Positions 4,961 through 29,258 of a DNA stretch of 64,000 bases are shown here, piece after piece. Position numbers and translations under genes: made by a program. The notes under the pieces were generated by a model, which saw only the letters and a program-made list of their open reading frames with translations, was not told the DNA's origin and did not search any database. This DNA comes from Mycobacterium sp. Marseille-P9652 (lineage in GTDB: Bacteria > Actinomycetota > Actinomycetes > Mycobacteriales > Mycobacteriaceae): NCBI RefSeq assembly GCF_902652685.1, contig NZ_CACRUY010000020.1:1-64000 (forward strand), in the 5' to 3' direction. Positions within the stretch are counted from its first letter, which is position 1, and each line of letters starts with the position of its first letter.

Positions 4961-7900
4961 GTGGGCGGGGAGTCCATGCCGGCCAGGACGCCAGCAGCGC
5001 GTGGGGCATCGGTGGACGCCGTGAGCACCACCTGCGCATACTGCGGCGTCGGCTGCGGCATGGTGCTCCAGGTCACAACCGACCCCCGAAGCGGGCGCCG
5101 TCACATCGCGAAGTCCGTTGGCAACAAGCAACACCCGGCCAACTTCGGCCGCCTGTGCACCAAGGGCGCGACCACCGCCGACATGCTCGCCGCCCCGGGC
5201 AGGGTCGAGTCGGCTCATGCGCGCGCCGACCGCGGCGAACCGCTCCGGCCCGTCGACATCGACGAGGCGATCGCCCAGTGCGGGCGGCGATTGCGCGCCA
5301 TCGTCGACGAACACGGCCCCGACGCCTTCGCCATGTACGTGTCGGGGCAGATGTCGATCGAGGCCCAGTACCTGGCCAACAAGCTCACCAAGGGCTTCGT
5401 CGGCACCAACCAGATCGAGGCGAATTCGCGACTGTGCATGGCCAGCGCGGGTTCCGGCTACAAGCTGTCGCTGGGCGCGGACGGCCCGCCCGGATCCTAC
5501 GAGGACTTCGACCACGCCGACGTCTTCTTCGTCATCGGCTCGAATCTCGCCGACTGCCACCCGATCCTGTTCCTGCGCATGATGGATCGCGTCAAGGCGG
5601 GCGCCAAACTGATCGTCGTCGACCCGCGCCGCACCGCGACCGCGGAGAAGGCCGACCTGTTCCTGCAGATCGCGCCCGGCACCGACCTCGCGCTGATGAA
5701 CGGCCTGCTGCACCAGATCGTCGAAAATGGCCACACCGACGACGAATTCATCGCGGAGTTCACCGAGGGCTGGGAGGCGATGCCCGGCTTCGTCGAGCAG
5801 TACACGCCCGACAGCGTCAGCGCGATCACCGGCATCCCCGCCGACGACATCCGCACGGCCGCACGCTGGATCGGTGAGGCCGGCAACTGGATGAGCTGCT
5901 GGACAATGGGACTCAACCAGAGCACTCACGGCACCTGGAACACCAACGCGATCTGCAACCTGCACCTGGCCACCGGCGCGATCTGCAAACCGGGCAGCGG
6001 GCCGTTCTCGCTGACCGGCCAGCCCAACGCGATGGGCGGCCGCGAAATGGGTTACATGGGGCCGGGTCTGCCCGGTCAGCGCTCGGTGACCCGCGCCGAG
6101 GACCGCGCATTCGTCGAGGACCAGTGGGGGCTCCCCCGCGGCTCGGTGCGCACCGACCTCATCGACGGCACCGTCGACATGTTCGCCCGGCTGGCCGACG
6201 GACGGATCAAGGCGTCCTGGATCGTGTGCACCAATCCCGTTGCCACGGTGGCCAACCGCAGAACGGTGGCCGAGGGCCTCGAAGGCGCCGAGTTCGTCAT
6301 CACCCAGGACGCCTTCGCCGAGACAGAGACCAACGAGTACGCCGACGTGCTGCTGCCGGCCGCCCTGTGGACCGAGGCCGAAGGGGTGATGGTCAACTCC
6401 GAGCGCGACCTGACCCTCTTCCAGCCGGCGGTCGCGCCCCCCGGCCAGGCGCTGCCGGACTGGCAACTCATCGCCAGGATCGCCTGTGCCATGGGGTATT
6501 CGGACGCGTTCAGCTACGACTCCGCGGAGCAGGTGTTCGAGGAGATCAAGCGGTTCTCGAACCCCGCCACGGGCTACGACCTGCGCGGAGCGAGTTACGA
6601 CCGGTTGCGTCGGTCGCCCCTGCAGTGGCCCTGCCCCCCGAACGCCGGTGACCGCAACCCGACCCGGTATCTCAACGACGGCGTCAGCCAGACCCAACTG
6701 GTCCGCGAGGACGGGCACGTGCCCCGGCTGGCCTTCCCGACGCCCACCGGCCGCGCGGCCTTCTTCCCCCGCCCGCATCTTCCGCCCCAGGAGATGCCGG
6801 ACGACGACTTCCCGTTCGTGCTCAACACCGGTCGCCTGCCGCACCAATGGCACACGATGACCAAGACCGGCAAGGTGGCCAAACTCAACAAGCTGAACCC
6901 CGGACCGTTCGTCGAGATTCACCCCGACGACGCCGCGCGGCTGAATGTCGCGGCGGGCGACCGGGTCGAGATCGCCTCCCGCCGCGGCCGAGCCGTGCTC
7001 CCCGCCGTCGTCACCGACCGGGTGCGGCCCGGCGACTGCTTCGCGCCGTTCCACTGGAACGACGTGTTCGGCGAATACCTGTCGATCAACGCCGTCACCA
7101 ACGATGCCGCCGACCCCGTGTCGTACCAACTGGAGTTCAAGGCCTGCGCGGTCACCCTCACCAAGGTCGCCGCCGCCCGAACCGAGCCGGCGAACGAGCC
7201 CACCGCGGACGCCTCCGACCCGATCGGCCTCGCCAGGGTCGATGCCCTGGCCGAACTCCTGGGCGTCGCCGACGAACCCGCGCCGCAATTGGAACCGCGC
7301 GGCCGCGCGTACCTCGCGGGCCTGGTGACCGGGCTGCGTTCGGAGGCGGGCCGCCGCGCGGCCGGGGTGCCCACCCTGCCGCCGAGCGCCCCCTTCGACC
7401 CGGCCACCAGGCTGTGGGTGGACGGTCTGCTCGCTGGGATGTTCGCGCGCAGCGACGCGCCCCCGACCACCGCGAGAGAGCCCGAGCGGACGACGGAACG
7501 ATCCGCCGCACAACAGAACCCGATCGTGGTGCTCTGGGCATCGCAGACCGGCACCGCCGAAGAGCTGGCCGCCAACGTGGCCGCGCGACTGGGGGAGGCC
7601 GGTCTGCCGGTGGCGTTGCACGGCATGGACGACTTCGACGCGGCGAAGCTCGCCACGGTGCGCGACCTGCTCCTCGTCACCAGCACGACCGGCGACGGCG
7701 AGCCGCCCGACAATGGCGCCGCGCTGTGGCGGGCGCTGACGGCCGACGGGGCGCCACGTCTCACCGACACGCGGTATTCCGTTCTCGCACTCGGCGATTC
7801 GAACTACGACGACTTCTGCGGTCATGGCCGCAAGCTCGACCACCGCCTCGCCGAACTGGGGGCGACCCGCCTCGTCGACCGTGTCGACTGCGAACCCGAC

Positions 7901-24580: not shown

Positions 24581-25344
24581 TTGGCGGTCACCTTGACCCC
24601 GAGCGCGGTGCTCAAGATGTTGATGAAGAACAACGCCATGAAGGAGAACACCACGGTCTCGTTCACCGCGTTGCCGACGCCGGTCGGACCGCCGCCGACC
24701 GACAGGCCCTTGTAGCAGGCGATCAGGCCGGCCGACAGCCCGAAGAGGGTCGCCTTGATCAGCGAGATCACGACCTGCGGCAACCCCGTGACCAGAGTCA
24801 TGCCCGCGATGAAGGCCCCGGGTGTGACGTGCTGGACGAAGACCACGAAGAAGTAGCTGCCGACCAGCCCGGTGACGGCGACCACCGAGTACAACAGCAC
24901 CGCGACGAAGATGGCCGCGAGGATGCGGGGCACCACCAGCGCCTGGATCGGGTTGATCCCGATCACCTTCATCGCGTCGATCTCCTCGCGGATGGTGCGC
25001 GCGCCCAGGTCGGCGCACATCGCGGTCGACCCGGCGCCCGAAACGACCATCGCCGTGACGACCGGCCCCACCTGGGTCACCGACGCCAGCCCCGCCCCCG
25101 CGCCGGAGAGGTCGCCGGCGCCGATCTCGACCAGCAGGATGTTGAGGACGAACACGATGAGCACCGTGTAGGGGATCGACAGCATGATCGTCGGAAAGAT
25201 CGACACGCGGGCGACGAACCAAATCTGTTCGAGGATCTCGCGCCAGGCCCACGGCCGGCGCACCACCGTGATCAGCGCTTCGGCGGTGAACAGGAAAAAC
25301 TCGCCCAGCGCGTTCATGGGCTTGGCAAGGGCCGTGCCGCTCAT
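24577..25344 (-). CDS. yrbEA: YrbEA-type permease (MlaE family) of Mce transporter
   Basis: 255 residues, first gene of the mce operon. MlaE family membrane protein with the EQ-loop motif REEIDAMKVIGINP (about 118-131) and five to six hydrophobic helices. Together with YrbEB it forms the inner-membrane permease. Its promoter must lie in the adjacent long intergenic region, which contains a low-GC inverted repeat. Confidence 0.9.
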   Translation of the reverse strand: MSGTALAKPMNALGEFFLFTAEALITVVRRPWAWREILEQIWFVARVSIFPTIMLSIPYTVLIVFVLNILLVEIGAGDLSGAGAGLASVTQVGPVVTAMVVSGAGSTAMCADLGARTIREEIDAMKVIGINPIQALVVPRILAAIFVAVLLYSVVAVTGLVGSYFFVVFVQHVTPGAFIAGMTLVTGLPQVVISLIKATLFGLSAGLIACYKGLSVGGGPTGVGNAVNETVVFSFMALFFINILSTALGVKVTAK

Positions 25345-26033
25345 GACGCGGGCTCAGCCCTGCGCACGTCCGCATACCTCAACGCGTTCCCCAATTTCGC
25401 AACACCATTGATCCGTTTGTAATCAGCTGGTCCGACGGTGTGCCGCGCTGTTTACAAACGACCGCGATGTCTCGTTGCGCGCATAGACCACGCGAGGAAT
25501 TTATTGGCAAAGCGATGAACGACATCAGGTTTGCAATCAACAAGACGAAAATCTGACCCCGTGCTGATGAAGCTGCGACAACGTCGCGCCGACGGGCGGC
25601 AAGGTCAGCTGAGCTGGGCTTTGAGGCCGTCGGCCGGAATTAAAGCCCTCGTCCGGGCGGCGCACGCGCACCAGTCGGCCGGCGTCGCACTGCGCCGCAT
25701 CGCGAGTTCAACACACCCATGCCAGACCTGTTCGACTGCTCGGCGCCGCCGCGACAATTCCGGCTATCGCCACCGCACGCCACGGTTCGGATTACTCGCC
25801 GAGAAGGCAAGGGTTGGGTTCAGGATGAGCACAACCGAAATGCCGCGGGGCGCAATTCTTCGGCCGCTCCCGAGGTTGGGTGCGGAATCCGTGATGGGCA
25901 ATCGGCGCGTCGCGTCGCGCGATACATTTCCCGCGCGGCCCGCTAGTCGCACATCGCCGGACACCTGATTGGGCCCGCCGCGTCCGGCAAAGTCACGAGC
26001 GCAGGTCACCGGATCGGCGTCAAGGCAAATGTC
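25345..26033. other. long intergenic region between divergent mce and cysK transcripts
   Basis: About 690 bases without a supported protein gene. The first 200 bases on the mce side are AT-richer than the surroundings and carry an inverted repeat (25414-25460). The open frames here (for example 25531-25968 plus) have Arg-rich, unstructured translations, no ribosome site and no family resemblance. The mce promoter must be in the left part. Confidence 0.6.
25414..25460. promoter_or_regulatory. candidate operator: inverted repeat upstream of mce operon
   Basis: CGTTTGTAA at 25414-25422 and its exact reverse complement TTACAAACG at 25452-25460 are separated by 29 bases, 70-116 nt upstream of yrbEA in locally AT-rich sequence. 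Two 9-bp arms about four helical turns apart could bind a dimeric repressor at two sites. Pattern only. Confidence 0.4.
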
Positions 26034-26039
26034 TATAGT
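26034..26039 (+). promoter_or_regulatory. -10 element of cysK leader transcript
   Basis: TATAGT, a near-perfect -10, ends 7 nt before the ATG at 26047. This places the transcription start on or next to that ATG. Confidence 0.65.
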
Positions 26040-26046
26040 GGGGCGT

Positions 26047-26118
26047 ATGCAACAGGCCACACAGCCGCGCCCCGACCTCACGTGTCGCACCGCCGCGGAC
26101 TGTTGTTGTTGTCGCTGA
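26047..26118 (+). CDS. leaderless polycysteine leader peptide, cysteine attenuator of cysK
   Basis: A 23-codon ORF, MQQATQPRPDLTC then RTAADCCCCR and stop, beginning where the TATAGT promoter predicts the transcript to start. Four consecutive Cys codons (TGT x4) sit one codon before the stop, with a further Cys at position 13. This is the signature of the leaderless polycysteine sORFs shown in mycobacteria to act as cysteine-responsive attenuators. Stalling at the Cys run when cysteinyl-tRNA is scarce would alter folding of the following 155-nt leader, which contains a plausible hairpin (GTGTTGC pairing with GCAACGC) before cysK. The peptide itself is probably only a sensor. Confidence 0.8.
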   Translation: MQQATQPRPDLTCRTAADCCCCR

Positions 26119-26273
26119 TCTCGGCGATTCCTTCCCAGCGCTGAGCGTGTTGCGCGTTTCCCGATCAGGGGAATTGAGACGGGCAACGCCACTGTTCGAA
26201 GAAGACGAACCGCCATCGAATCCGACATCCACCGGCAGGCTGACGAGTCCTGTACCGACGCCCAGGAAGACAG

Positions 26274-27206
26274 ATGAGCATTGCTGAGAACGTCACCCAG
26301 CTAATCGGAAACACCCCGCTGGTCCGGCTTAACCGGGTCACCGAGGGCGCTGTCGCCGACGTCGTCGCCAAGCTGGAATTCTTCAACCCCGCGAACAGCG
26401 TGAAGGACCGGATCGGGGTGGCCATGCTTGACGCGGCCGAAGAGGCCGGTCTGATCAAACCCGACACGATCATTCTCGAGCCCACTAGCGGCAACACCGG
26501 CATCGCGCTGGCGATGGTGTGTGCCGCGCGCGGCTATCGGTGTGTGCTGACCATGCCGGAGACGATGAGCACCGAGCGGCGAATGTTGTTGCGCGCGTTC
26601 GGCGCCGAGATCGTCCTCACGCCGGGCTCGGAGGGCATGGCCGGCGCGATCGCCAAGGCCGAGGAGCTGGCCAAGAGCGACCAGCGGTACTTCATCCCAC
26701 AGCAGTTCGAGAACCCGGCCAATCCGGCGATTCACCGCAAGACCACCGCCGAGGAAGTGTGGCGCGACACCGACGGAAAGATCGACTTCTTCGTCTCCGG
26801 GGTGGGCACCGGCGGCACCCTTACGGGTGTGGCGCAGGTCGTCAAGGAGCGCAAGCCGTCGGTGAAGTTCGTGGCCGTCGAGCCGGAAGCGTCGCCGGTG
26901 CTGTCGGGCGGCCAGAAGGGACCTCACCCCATCCAGGGCATCGGCGCCGGGTTCGTCCCGCCGGTGCTGGACATGGATCTGGTCGACGAGGTCGTCACCG
27001 TCGGCAACGATGAGTCGTTCACCATGGCCCGGCGGTTGGCCCGGGAGGAGGGGCTCCTCGTCGGCATCTCCTCAGGAGCGGCCGTCGTCGCCGCTTTGCA
27101 GGTCGCCCGGCGGCCAGAGAACGCCGGCAAACTCATCGTCGTGGTGCTGCCCAGCTTCGGGGAGCGGTACCTGAGCACGCCGCTCTTCGCCGACCTGGCG
27201 GACTAG
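26274..27206 (+). CDS. cysK: O-acetylserine sulfhydrylase (cysteine synthase A)
   Basis: 310 residues. PLP enzyme of fold type [10 protein letters not shown] carries the PLP lysine (about 44), TSGNTG (about 71-76) is the substrate/phosphate loop, and [10 protein letters not shown] (about 179-188) binds the PLP phosphate. It makes cysteine from O-acetylserine and sulfide. AGGAAGA precedes the ATG. It forms an operon with cysE, 2 nt downstream, behind a polycysteine leader ORF. Matches Rv2334 (cysK1) by position and length. Confidence 0.95.
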
Positions 27207-27208
27207 CG

Positions 27209-27904
27209 ATGCTCGCGGCGATACGGCAGGACATCCGGGCGGCCCGGGAGCGCGACCCGGCCCGCCCGACCACGCTGGAGGTGATCTTCGCCTATCCCGG
27301 CGTACACGCCATTTGGGGCCACCGCATCAGCCACTGGATGTGGAAGCGCGGCTCCCGGGTGGCGGCGCGGACGCTGGCCGAACTCACCCGGATCCTCACC
27401 GGCGTCGACATCCACCCCGGCGCCGTCCTCGGCCCCCGCCTCTTCATCGACCACGCAACCGGCGTGGTGATCGGGGAGACGGCCGAGGTCGGCGAGGACG
27501 TGATGATCTACCACGGTGTGACCCTCGGCGGCAGCGGCGGCGACACCGGCAAGCGCCATCCCACCATCGGCGACCGCGTGATCATTGGCGCCGGGGCCAA
27601 GGTTCTCGGGGCGATCAAGGTCGGTGACGACAGCCGGATCGGCGCGAACGCCGTGGTGGTCAAAGAGGTGCCGTCCAGCGCGGTGGTCGTCGGCGTTCCT
27701 GGCCAGGTCATCAGCCGGCACGGCCGCAGCAGCCCGGACGACTCGATGATGCCCGACCTCGTCGGGGTCAGCCTGCAGTCCCTACTGACCCGGGTGTCCA
27801 AGCTGGAAGCCGGCACCAACGGTCACGGGGACGGCCGGCAGACGGACCAGGTCATTCGGCCGCCGGAGGCCGGGGTGTGGCACGGCGAAGACTTCTCCAT
27901 CTGA
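27209..27904 (+). CDS. cysE: serine O-acetyltransferase
   Basis: 231 residues. Short N-terminal helical region, then left-handed beta-helix hexapeptide repeats (about 65-175) with active-site HPGAVLG and FIDHATGVVIGETA. It acetylates serine with acetyl-CoA, feeding cysK. The protein ends GEDFSI; the terminal Ile is the residue CysE inserts into the CysK active site in the cysteine synthase complex. Follows cysK by 2 nt, so co-transcribed and probably translationally coupled. Confidence 0.95.
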   Translation: MLAAIRQDIRAARERDPARPTTLEVIFAYPGVHAIWGHRISHWMWKRGSRVAARTLAELTRILTGVDIHPGAVLGPRLFIDHATGVVIGETAEVGEDVMIYHGVTLGGSGGDTGKRHPTIGDRVIIGAGAKVLGAIKVGDDSRIGANAVVVKEVPSSAVVVGVPGQVISRHGRSSPDDSMMPDLVGVSLQSLLTRVSKLEAGTNGHGDGRQTDQVIRPPEAGVWHGEDFSI

Positions 27905-27965
27905 GCGCCTCGGGGACACTTAAACCCGTTGTGAGCCAAACGGTTACGGGATCTCGGCGACGTCT

Positions 27966-27971
27966 TACAGT
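27966..27971 (+). promoter_or_regulatory. -10 element upstream of ANTAR-gene leader
   Basis: TACAGT ends 7 nt before an ATG at 27979, the same geometry as the cysK leader promoter. Confidence 0.5.
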
Positions 27972-27978
27972 GGTGGCC

Positions 27979-28041
27979 ATGCGGTCGTGCGTGCAGCGGT
28001 GTCCCGTCGAGCGGTTTCGCGCCGTCGGCCGTTGTCGTTGA
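27979..28041 (+). CDS. predicted leaderless 20-residue leader ORF upstream of ANTAR gene
   Basis: ATG at the predicted transcription start, 20 codons (MRSCVQRCP...GRCR) and TGA. Three Cys and six Arg are unusual for so short a peptide. It ends 111 nt before the ANTAR-domain gene. It may be a leader peptide, or the ATG may simply lie within a 5' untranslated region. No ribosome-site evidence is needed if leaderless. Conservation of the reading frame would decide. Confidence 0.4.
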   Translation: MRSCVQRCPVERFRAVGRCR

Positions 28042-28152
28042 TTCCGTGCAGCTCGTTCTCCGTTTGTGCTCTGCTTGCCAATACGAAACGTAGGCCGAGT
28101 AGACGGGACTCCGACGCCCCTTCCCGCCACCCCGACCAGGAGGTCGACCACC

Positions 28153-28434
28153 GTGATCGAAACCATCGCGACCCAGCAGCCTCCCAACGCGAGCCGTCGG
28201 CAGGCCAGCCGGGTCCTTGACACCGCGGTGGGGATACTCGTCGGCTGGCGTCGCTGCAGCACGGATGCCGCTTTCCGGGAACTGATCGGCGTCAGCGAGC
28301 GGCACGAGGTGCCGATTTTCGCATTGGCCGCCGCGCTGGTGGCCCTGGCGAGCAGGGACGCCGACCGGCCGCCCGCCGACGCCGCGGCCCGGCTCGCCGC
28401 CGAGAAGGAATGGGGCCTGACCCACCTGCTCTGA
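28153..28434 (+). CDS. small ANTAR-domain RNA-binding protein
   Basis: 93 residues from a GTG with CAGGAGGTC about nine bases upstream. The central part, LDTAVGILVGWRRCSTDAAF followed by RELIGVSERHEVPIFALAAALV, has the three-helix ANTAR pattern (ID.A.GILM....C....AF..L...S). ANTAR proteins bind paired RNA hairpins and act as antiterminators. No GAF or receiver sensor domain is attached, so control must come from a partner or from expression level. A 110-nt leader separates it from the upstream leader ORF and could hold an autoregulatory target. Confidence 0.75.
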   Translation: MIETIATQQPPNASRRQASRVLDTAVGILVGWRRCSTDAAFRELIGVSERHEVPIFALAAALVALASRDADRPPADAAARLAAEKEWGLTHLL

Positions 28435-28535
28435 CGGTCACGATAGGGCCTCACCCGTCTGTGGGCCATGCGCGCCCCGGCCGCATACAGTTGTCAGTCG
28501 CGGCCGTGCATCGGTCCGAGTGAGGGGGATCGACA

Positions 28536-29258
28536 GTGACCGCTGAGCCCGCCCGCAGAAAGGTCGCGATCGTCACCGGGGCCTCGCAGGGCATGGGGGC
28601 CGCGATCGTGGACGCCTACCGCGGACTCGACTACGCGGTCGTGGCCAATTCGCGGTCGATCTCGCCCGCCGACGACCCCGCCGTCGCCGCGGTCGCGGGT
28701 GACATCGCCGATCCGGCCACCGCGGATCGCGTCGTGGCGACGGCGCTGGAGCGCTTCGGCCGGGTCGACACGCTGATCAACAACGCGGGCGTCTTCGTCT
28801 CGAAGCCGTTCACGGAGTACACCGTGGCCGACTATGAGTTCGTCACCGCGGTGAACCTGGCCGGCTTCTTCCACATCACCCAGCGGGCGATCGCGCAGAT
28901 GCTCGCCCGGGGCGAGGGCGGCCACGTGATCAACGTGACGACCACACTGGTCGAACACGCCAGCTCCCAGATCCCGGCCGGTCTGGCGGCACTCACCAAG
29001 GGCGGGCTGGCGGCGGTCACCAGGTCTCTCGCGATCGAATACGCGTCCCGGCACATTCGCGTCAATGCGATCTCCCCCGGCCACATCGGCACACCCATGC
29101 ACGCCGACGGCGATTCGTCCGCGCTGGCCGCCATGCATCCGCTCGGCCGGATGGGCACGATCGCCGACATCGTCGCGGGGATCCGTTATCTGGAGGCCGC
29201 GACGTTCGTCACCGGGGAGACGCTGCACATCGACGGGGGCCAGAGCGCGGGGCACTGA
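28536..29258 (+). CDS. SDR family oxidoreductase with altered active site
   Basis: 240 residues from GTG after GAGGGGG. Rossmann motif TGASQGMG (about 12-19) and NNAG (about 88-91) are present. The catalytic YxxxK is not: the aligned segment reads AALTK, so the Tyr is replaced by Ala while the Lys remains, and the Ser position is in VTTT. The C-terminus has the normal TGETLHIDGGQ. This variant occurs in a recognised divergent SDR group, so it may bind NAD(P)H with non-canonical chemistry. Substrate unknown. Located between the ANTAR gene and the FAD/TTC38 fusion. Confidence 0.8.
   Translation: MTAEPARRKVAIVTGASQGMGAAIVDAYRGLDYAVVANSRSISPADDPAVAAVAGDIADPATADRVVATALERFGRVDTLINNAGVFVSKPFTEYTVADYEFVTAVNLAGFFHITQRAIAQMLARGEGGHVINVTTTLVEHASSQIPAGLAALTKGGLAAVTRSLAIEYASRHIRVNAISPGHIGTPMHADGDSSALAAMHPLGRMGTIADIVAGIRYLEAATFVTGETLHIDGGQSAGH

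Follow-up and report, generated by a model that had tools for sequence, protein, structure and literature searches.

A leaderless short open reading frame (sORF) ending in a run of cysteine codons lies directly upstream of the cysK-cysE operon in a 64,000-nucleotide (nt) stretch of Mycobacterium sp. Marseille-P9652 DNA (contig NZ_CACRUY010000020.1, positions 1 to 64,000 of the forward strand), hereafter the window. We consider it rather probable that this sORF is the orthologue of a leader inherited from an operon of the order leader, TED/TQXA-domain gene, cysK, cysE, and that its output has been lost in the window. By its sequence it belongs to an established class of leader peptides, and attenuation of cysK-cysE in this genome is not demonstrated: the sensor seems intact, its ancestral output lost and its present output on cysK unproven.

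The predicted leaderless promoter of the sORF has the −10 hexamer TATAGT at positions 26034–26039 (this and the following features lie on the + strand), separated by 7 nt (GGGGCGT, read directly from the window) from an ATG at 26047–26049 that is also the predicted 5′ end of the mRNA. The sORF itself (MQQATQPRPDLTCRTAADCCCCR, 23 codons and a stop, 26047–26118) contains four consecutive TGT (Cys) codons at 26101–26112, the predicted stalling site, followed by a single CGC codon and the TGA stop; a fifth Cys codon lies farther upstream. After a further 155 nt comes the ATG of cysK (cysteine synthase A, 310 amino acids, 26274–27206; TIGR01139, E 2e-143), preceded by the Shine-Dalgarno (SD) sequence AGGAAG at 26264–26269, and then cysE (serine O-acetyltransferase, 231 amino acids, 27209–27904; TIGR01172, E 5.5e-73). 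This is the architecture given in the preliminary description of the locus, and reading the sequence bears it out. The marks of the leader family are all found in the window sequence: a −10 hexamer at 7 nt (6–7 being required) before the predicted ATG start, a conserved Cys run near the stop, and a place at the head of an operon for cysteine metabolism. Since no TANNNT hexamer occurs between the sORF and cysK, 26047 is the sole start suggested by this motif. Counting both strands, a run of four TGY codons occurs once in the 64 kb, compared with at least one such run in 5 of 100 dinucleotide shuffles, and a short ORF with four successive Cys codons behind a TANNNT hexamer and 6 or 7 nt arose in 1 of 100 shuffles. 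These chance statistics are modest for the window alone, and it is conservation that is decisive. Rfam gave no match in the leader at E <= 5 within 25000–29000, and otherwise only a tRNA. In another frame, the TGT run is part of a short leucine-rich ORF (LLLL; MSHRRGLLLLSLISAIPSQR, 26082–26144, + strand).

Conservation was followed through a CysK search across 148 genomes of the genus, which gave 75 matches at E <= 1e-120, 51 of them with 80–100% identity. Upstream sequence was readable at 50 of these 51 loci (G106 being unreadable upstream of cysK), and 44 of the 50 carry a leaderless-type sORF that ends in a Cys run. Those outside the 44 are L099, L100, L109 (with a variant start), L130, L133 and L134 (only 268 nt readable); at L095 the promoter falls outside the fetched edge. 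At 20 fetched loci from the 24 CysK matches of lower identity (62–66%), no Cys-rich leaderless sORF was found within ∼900 nt. All loci together yielded 66 distinct homologous sORF sequences, whose Cys counts are conditioned on a scan that demanded at least three Cys including a CC pair. The relatives have a TAT..T hexamer 5–8 nt before the ATG, mostly TATAGT at 6–7 nt. Thus, both the ATG and the Cys run are kept in related species, whose loss there the preliminary description had named as a refutation, and the earlier assignment to the leaderless polycysteine leaders reported in mycobacteria stands. The window sORF is 85% identical in nucleotide sequence to those of L106, L092 and L089, whereas the spacer is 57% identical to that of L106, and no sequence compared matches window cysK at more than 87% identity, which suggests that the sORF was probably under constraint until recently.

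At many loci the sORF lies ∼1.4 kb upstream of cysK, with a gene of 420–450 codons in between. The product of this gene, taken from L066, is a TED/TQXA-domain protein (PF08341, E 7.3e-10; TIGR03934, E 8.4e-15). According to a passage of PMC4450167, thioester domains carry [YFL]C at a motif that reads AYS[LV]D in all 15 TED proteins examined here, which therefore have Ser at the position of the thioester Cys. In 27 of 30 loci, the TED stop codon is found between −10 and +14 nt relative to the start of cysK, and in 13 of them it is at +4, where stop and start overlap. A TED homologue is present in 50 of the 148 genomes and absent, by protein search, from the genome of the window. Some 20 genomes have TED without an adjacent CysK of at least 80% identity; from these, 13 TED loci were fetched, with TED 43–57% identical to that of L066. 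A polycysteine sORF precedes TED at 89–105 nt in all 13. In 12 of these stretches tblastn found no cysK, the exception being L229 with a 64% identical CysK ∼2.9 kb away on the other strand, and none of the 13 has cysK downstream of TED. TED is therefore the most constant partner of the leader and, as far as these sequences go, looks like its primary one.

The Ser-type TED proteins (L066:1714-2988 and 14 other loci) have no obvious role in cysteine metabolism, and a PDB sequence search with the TED protein gave no hit. In-frame TGA codons in TED of G087, G109 and G063 were considered as selenocysteine codons and rejected, the TGA lying upstream of the start. At L224, a further polycysteine sORF (MRTASGNKGGHVLALIAVGFSAVADVCCCC, near 5970, + strand) is found ∼2.7 kb past the TED gene.

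When 27 TED-bearing leaders were aligned (L093, L135 and others with an unmatched TED start being left aside), RNAalifold returned, unprompted, one helix, GTTG..TTCCT : AGGAA..CAAC. One arm consists of GTTG, from the last Cys codon and the stop, and of TTCCT right after the stop; the other consists of AGGAA and CAAC around the TED SD. The TED SD would thus pair with a segment that runs from the last Cys codon through the stop to ∼8 nt beyond it. Extended to 11 pairs, the helix has 93.6% of cells paired, compared with 30–60% when the arms are slid against each other. Nine of the 13 divergent loci have TTTTCTG in the arm and nine have [CA]AGAAAG as the SD; these are largely the same loci, so that the two changes are matched. 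Across 40 loci, each leader's own anti-SD/SD duplex has a mean energy of −13.37 kcal/mol, compared with −12.21 (standard deviation 0.31) for permuted species pairs, and 2 of 2000 permutations gave a value as low.

A stalled ribosome was simulated by blocking the nucleotides that it would cover. With the ribosome on the last Cys codon, predicted pairing of the TED SD core fell from 0.78 to 0.59 across the 27 loci, compared with 0.67 to 0.66 for shuffled spacers, and a drop of more than 0.2 was seen at 12 of the 27 loci, compared with 1 of 27 with shuffled spacers. A pairing that hides the ribosome-binding site until a ribosome occupies the Cys codons is thus predicted for the TED-bearing relatives, whose leaders could behave as translational attenuators, with ribosomes presumably stalling on the run.

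We propose that in the ancestral operon a ribosome finishing the sORF would leave, whereupon the segment from the last Cys codon to just past the stop would close over the TED SD and TED would be translated little. Little translation of TED would in turn mean little translation of cysK, through the abutting stop and start codons. Under a shortage of charged Cys-tRNA, the ribosome would stall on the Cys codons, cover the arm and free the TED SD. Conservation of the sORF and of the complementary arms, the matched change between groups and the layout for coupling can be read from the sequences; stalling, the response to cysteine and the efficiency of coupling we infer.

A cysK tree with 50 rows requires at least 10 changes in the state of TED, and the 28 rows counted as TED-less do not form one clade (approximately unbiased test, p 7e-5), indicating on sequence grounds that TED has been lost repeatedly while the leader was usually kept. 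Thirty distinct TED-less leaders were compared, 26 of an initial set plus L013, L101, L103 and L105, which a regular expression had missed; the duplicates L087, L090 and L132 were dropped. In 15 of the 30 the TED start survives and begins an ORF whose end falls between −9 and +4 relative to the cysK start; this count takes in L014, whose SD is weak, and leaves out L016 and L092, which have other starts. These remnant ORFs have 28–41 codons in most leaders and 111–139 in three, and end at or over the cysK start. At L107 the TED start is kept and the ORF stops early. The mini-ORFs are thus open to cysK in 15 of 16 leaders with a TED start, compared with 6.5 expected from fixed-length shuffles, kinship uncorrected. 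Simulated stalling at the last Cys codon lowered pairing of the former TED SD, now that of the mini-ORF, from 0.64 to 0.49 over 17 sites, decayed ones included, with a drop of more than 0.2 in 7 of 17 and in none of the controls. For the cysK SD of TED-less loci, pairing was 0.51 with and without the stall (15 loci, seven leaders without a recognisable cysK SD core being omitted), and a drop of more than 0.2 occurred in 1 of 15 and in no control. A relay from leader through mini-ORF to cysK is possible, on this modelling, in the lineages that keep the TED start. The ORFs of L106 and L187 run from TED's start out of the TED frame, and both end at +4 over the cysK start.

Eight TED-less loci have similar 25-codon sORFs and have lost TED's own start codon, L092 having gained another (L010 was excluded for its different sORF length). 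Heterozygosity in these sORFs is 0.04–0.07 (0.044 at third positions), compared with 0.196 in the next 40 nt (permutation p 0.014 for the Cys codons) and 0.399 in the upstream DNA. The leader seems from these sequences still to matter at loci without the TED start and, because third positions are equally invariant, the constraint would not be on the peptide alone.

In the window, the post-stop arm is altered or missing, and so are the SD and the start of TED. The place of the conserved anti-SD arm (26113–26136, GTTGATTTCCTGAC in relatives) has diverged to cgcTGAtctcggcgattccttccc; at 26198–26211 alignment places a degenerate remnant of the TED ribosome-binding region (gaagaagacgaacc), with the TED start codon missing; and the final ∼50 nt before the cysK SD (26212–26262) correspond, by comparison with relatives, to what is left of the final codons of the TED/TQXA gene after its deletion. 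Predicted pairing of the former TED site is 0.26 free, 0.24 with a ribosome at the first and 0.26 with one at the last Cys codon, so that stalling does not open it. For the cysK SD, the corresponding values are 0.63, 0.56 and 0.76, and its best duplex (−8.8 kcal/mol) was equalled by 40% of shuffles. Neither the simulation nor the duplex test thus revealed, in the window, any masking of the ribosome-binding site that a ribosome on the Cys codons would relieve. As no effective switch was found, direct control of cysK-cysE by Cys-tRNA charging, as put forward in the preliminary description, is unproven in this genome. According to the explanation we favour, loss of TED with its start codon, and of the two arms of the helix, has left the sensor intact as first cistron of an sORF-cysK-cysE message that has no recognisable SD switch; cysK would probably be translated from its own SD, any remaining cysteine control taking another route.

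Two other pairings were considered as a new switch and rejected. One, returned by RNAalifold for ten TED-less leaders including that of the window, joins the Cys tract to the cysK start; it had an expected value of 0.80 over 27 leaders compared with 0.75 in shuffles, changed from 0.56 to 0.55 on stalling, and is probably a G-U artefact. A rewired helix between anti-SD and cysK SD, seen in the group L104/L177/L181/L186/L190, reached the 5% level in 1 of 13 TED-less leaders (L181), and stalling was without effect in L092 and L104, the two tested.

Several points weigh against our explanation. Covariation of the helix across the 27 aligned sequences does not exceed that in shuffles; the matched arm change stems from two groups that are related, and the permutation takes no account of kinship. 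Duplexes of single loci are uneven, reaching the 5% level in 16 of 27 TED-cysK loci (19 of 27 with shorter segments) and 5 of 13 divergent ones. In the simulation, the TED SD opens less (0.78 to 0.70) when the ribosome sits on the first Cys codon of the run, and a ribosome at the stop codon opens it about as much as one on the Cys codons, so that the model calls for rapid departure of the ribosome once it has terminated and for a stall near the end of the run. Every structural result is a prediction. Recombination at the locus could inflate the count of TED losses, and the null for the mini-ORFs keeps the observed lengths, does not test the deletion frame and leaves their count uncorrected for relatedness. 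Our tests would miss an output on cysK in the window that is rewired or tertiary, and the constraint across the whole sORF in TED-less loci suggests a retained output that our explanation does not supply.

A broader reading, which we hold tentatively, is that repeated deletion of TED handed a cysteine sensor, once that of a Ser-type TED gene, to the cysteine synthase operon, acting through the relay in some lineages and, in others, this genome included, through a rewired route that uses neither the relay nor the ancestral SD helix. Attenuation at the level of transcription we regard as rather unlikely: quick completion of the sORF would leave the 155-nt spacer naked for Rho to terminate before cysK, and stalled ribosomes would alter this. 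Rho was proposed for mycobacterial cys leaders in 2005 (PMC1262725, section 6), although the authors there call the Rho motif evidence rather weak. The + strand has no intrinsic terminator in 25800–26400, the sole terminator-like site being on the minus strand; the intrinsic terminator between leader and first gene that marks a classical terminator-based attenuator is thus not found in the window, leaving Rho as an open route. Constraint on the sORF also persists at loci without the TED start, but the conserved SD helix of the TED-bearing relatives argues for translation-level control there.

It is unlikely, in our estimate, that the sORF is a relic, persisting after TED loss as the promoter and 5′ end of the cysK-cysE message without any regulation. 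The simulation shows no switch on cysK or on the former TED site, the TED start and SD have decayed in the window and TED is gone from the genome, all as this idea would have it; however, Cys run, start and promoter are intact, the sORF has diverged from that of L106 less than the spacer, and sORFs of other TED-less loci are constrained.

Improbable, too, is the model of the preliminary description, in which a hairpin of GTGTTGC/GCAACGC with a TTCCC/GGGAA core (placed at 26147–26189) links cysK translation to Cys-tRNA charging. The segments exist and fold (26144–26192, −22.7 kcal/mol, z −3.15, more stable than 199 of 200 shuffles), but both GTGTTGC and GCAACGC are present in 1 of 26 TED-less leaders, that of the window itself (L013, L101, L103 and L105 being outside this set). 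In the window, the hairpin persists in the minimum free energy structure at every simulated ribosome position and involves neither the cysK SD, whose pairing values are given above, nor the cysK start. Of the earlier proposal, the leader type is thus retained and, on present modelling, the switch hairpin is not. Lastly, a chance ORF, a promoter-like hexamer and TGT run without function, is hardly credible, since against a window-level chance of ∼1 in 100 the same promoter type, spacing, start and Cys run recur at 44 of the 50 orthologous loci and at all 13 divergent TED loci fetched, which refutes it for the family, window-specific loss of function being possible.

A second leaderless sORF candidate (27979–28041, + strand, TACAGT-7-ATG, MRSCVQRCPVERFRAVGRCR) lies between cysE and an ANTAR-domain ORF (PF03861, 28066–28434); a loose scan of 42 other loci, some of which possibly do not reach that region, gave no match to it. 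On contig C7 of the same genome (L209:349), a second polycysteine leaderless sORF with a GTG start (MSPRLEPTLTKRRAVDLCRLAGCRCCCSC) lies upstream of a two-domain rhodanese locus. No polycysteine sORF was found in the scanned stretches near this genome's three PAPS-reductase-family, five lesser cysK-like and sulfite/nitrite reductase loci.

In the polycysteine attenuators of Mycobacterium smegmatis, stalled ribosomes reportedly unmask the next ribosome-binding site, a finding credited to Canestrari et al. in 2020. In erm-type translation attenuators and trp-type transcription attenuators, stalling of a leader ribosome alters downstream RNA pairing. The TED-bearing relatives would resemble the translational, erm-type kind; unlike either, the signal here would be Cys-tRNA charging, the mRNA is leaderless and no terminator hairpin was found. 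The M. smegmatis system is taken here from passages of PMC9094748, PMC13236596 and PMC9031893, the latter two stating that elongation speed on these leaderless sORFs depends on cysteine. Leaderless start, short ORF with a Cys run and position upstream of cysteine genes are shared with the window, whereas the masking structure was not found in the window and those passages contain neither the TED layout, its loss nor the mini-ORF. Section 6 of PMC1262725 (2005) describes Cys-run leaders upstream of mycobacterial cys operons without a conserved terminator hairpin, and the paper lists extra genes in these operons, MAP2122 in M. avium and ML0840 in M. leprae, which are probably the TED gene, going by operon position. 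The SD helix, the identity of TED, its losses and the mini-ORFs are not in that section and are added here. Leaderless Cys-rich upstream ORFs at cysA2, Rv0485 and nirA are described in PMC4633059 (2015); they resemble the window sORF in being leaderless and, for cysA2, in a C-terminal Cys cluster, and are ribosome-occupied in M. smegmatis, but they lie at other loci, and cysK and Rv2334 do not occur in the portion of that text searched. Beyond PMC1262725, no paper in open-licence listings was tied to a TED-cysK leader, which does not exclude one in print. Polycysteine leaders before mycobacterial cys operons are thus already in print; new are the TED partner, the pairing of the stop region with the SD, the repeated loss of TED with the leader kept, and the lost output in the window.

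The interest of this variant lies in the way the leader's target changes. For TED-bearing loci, the comparison gives a concrete candidate RNA switch, the stop-codon region against the SD, and places a Ser-type TED protein without an obvious role behind a cysteine sensor. The natural deletion series shows how the target of an attenuator can change, and it also carries a warning that an intact leader peptide is no proof that the next gene is regulated.
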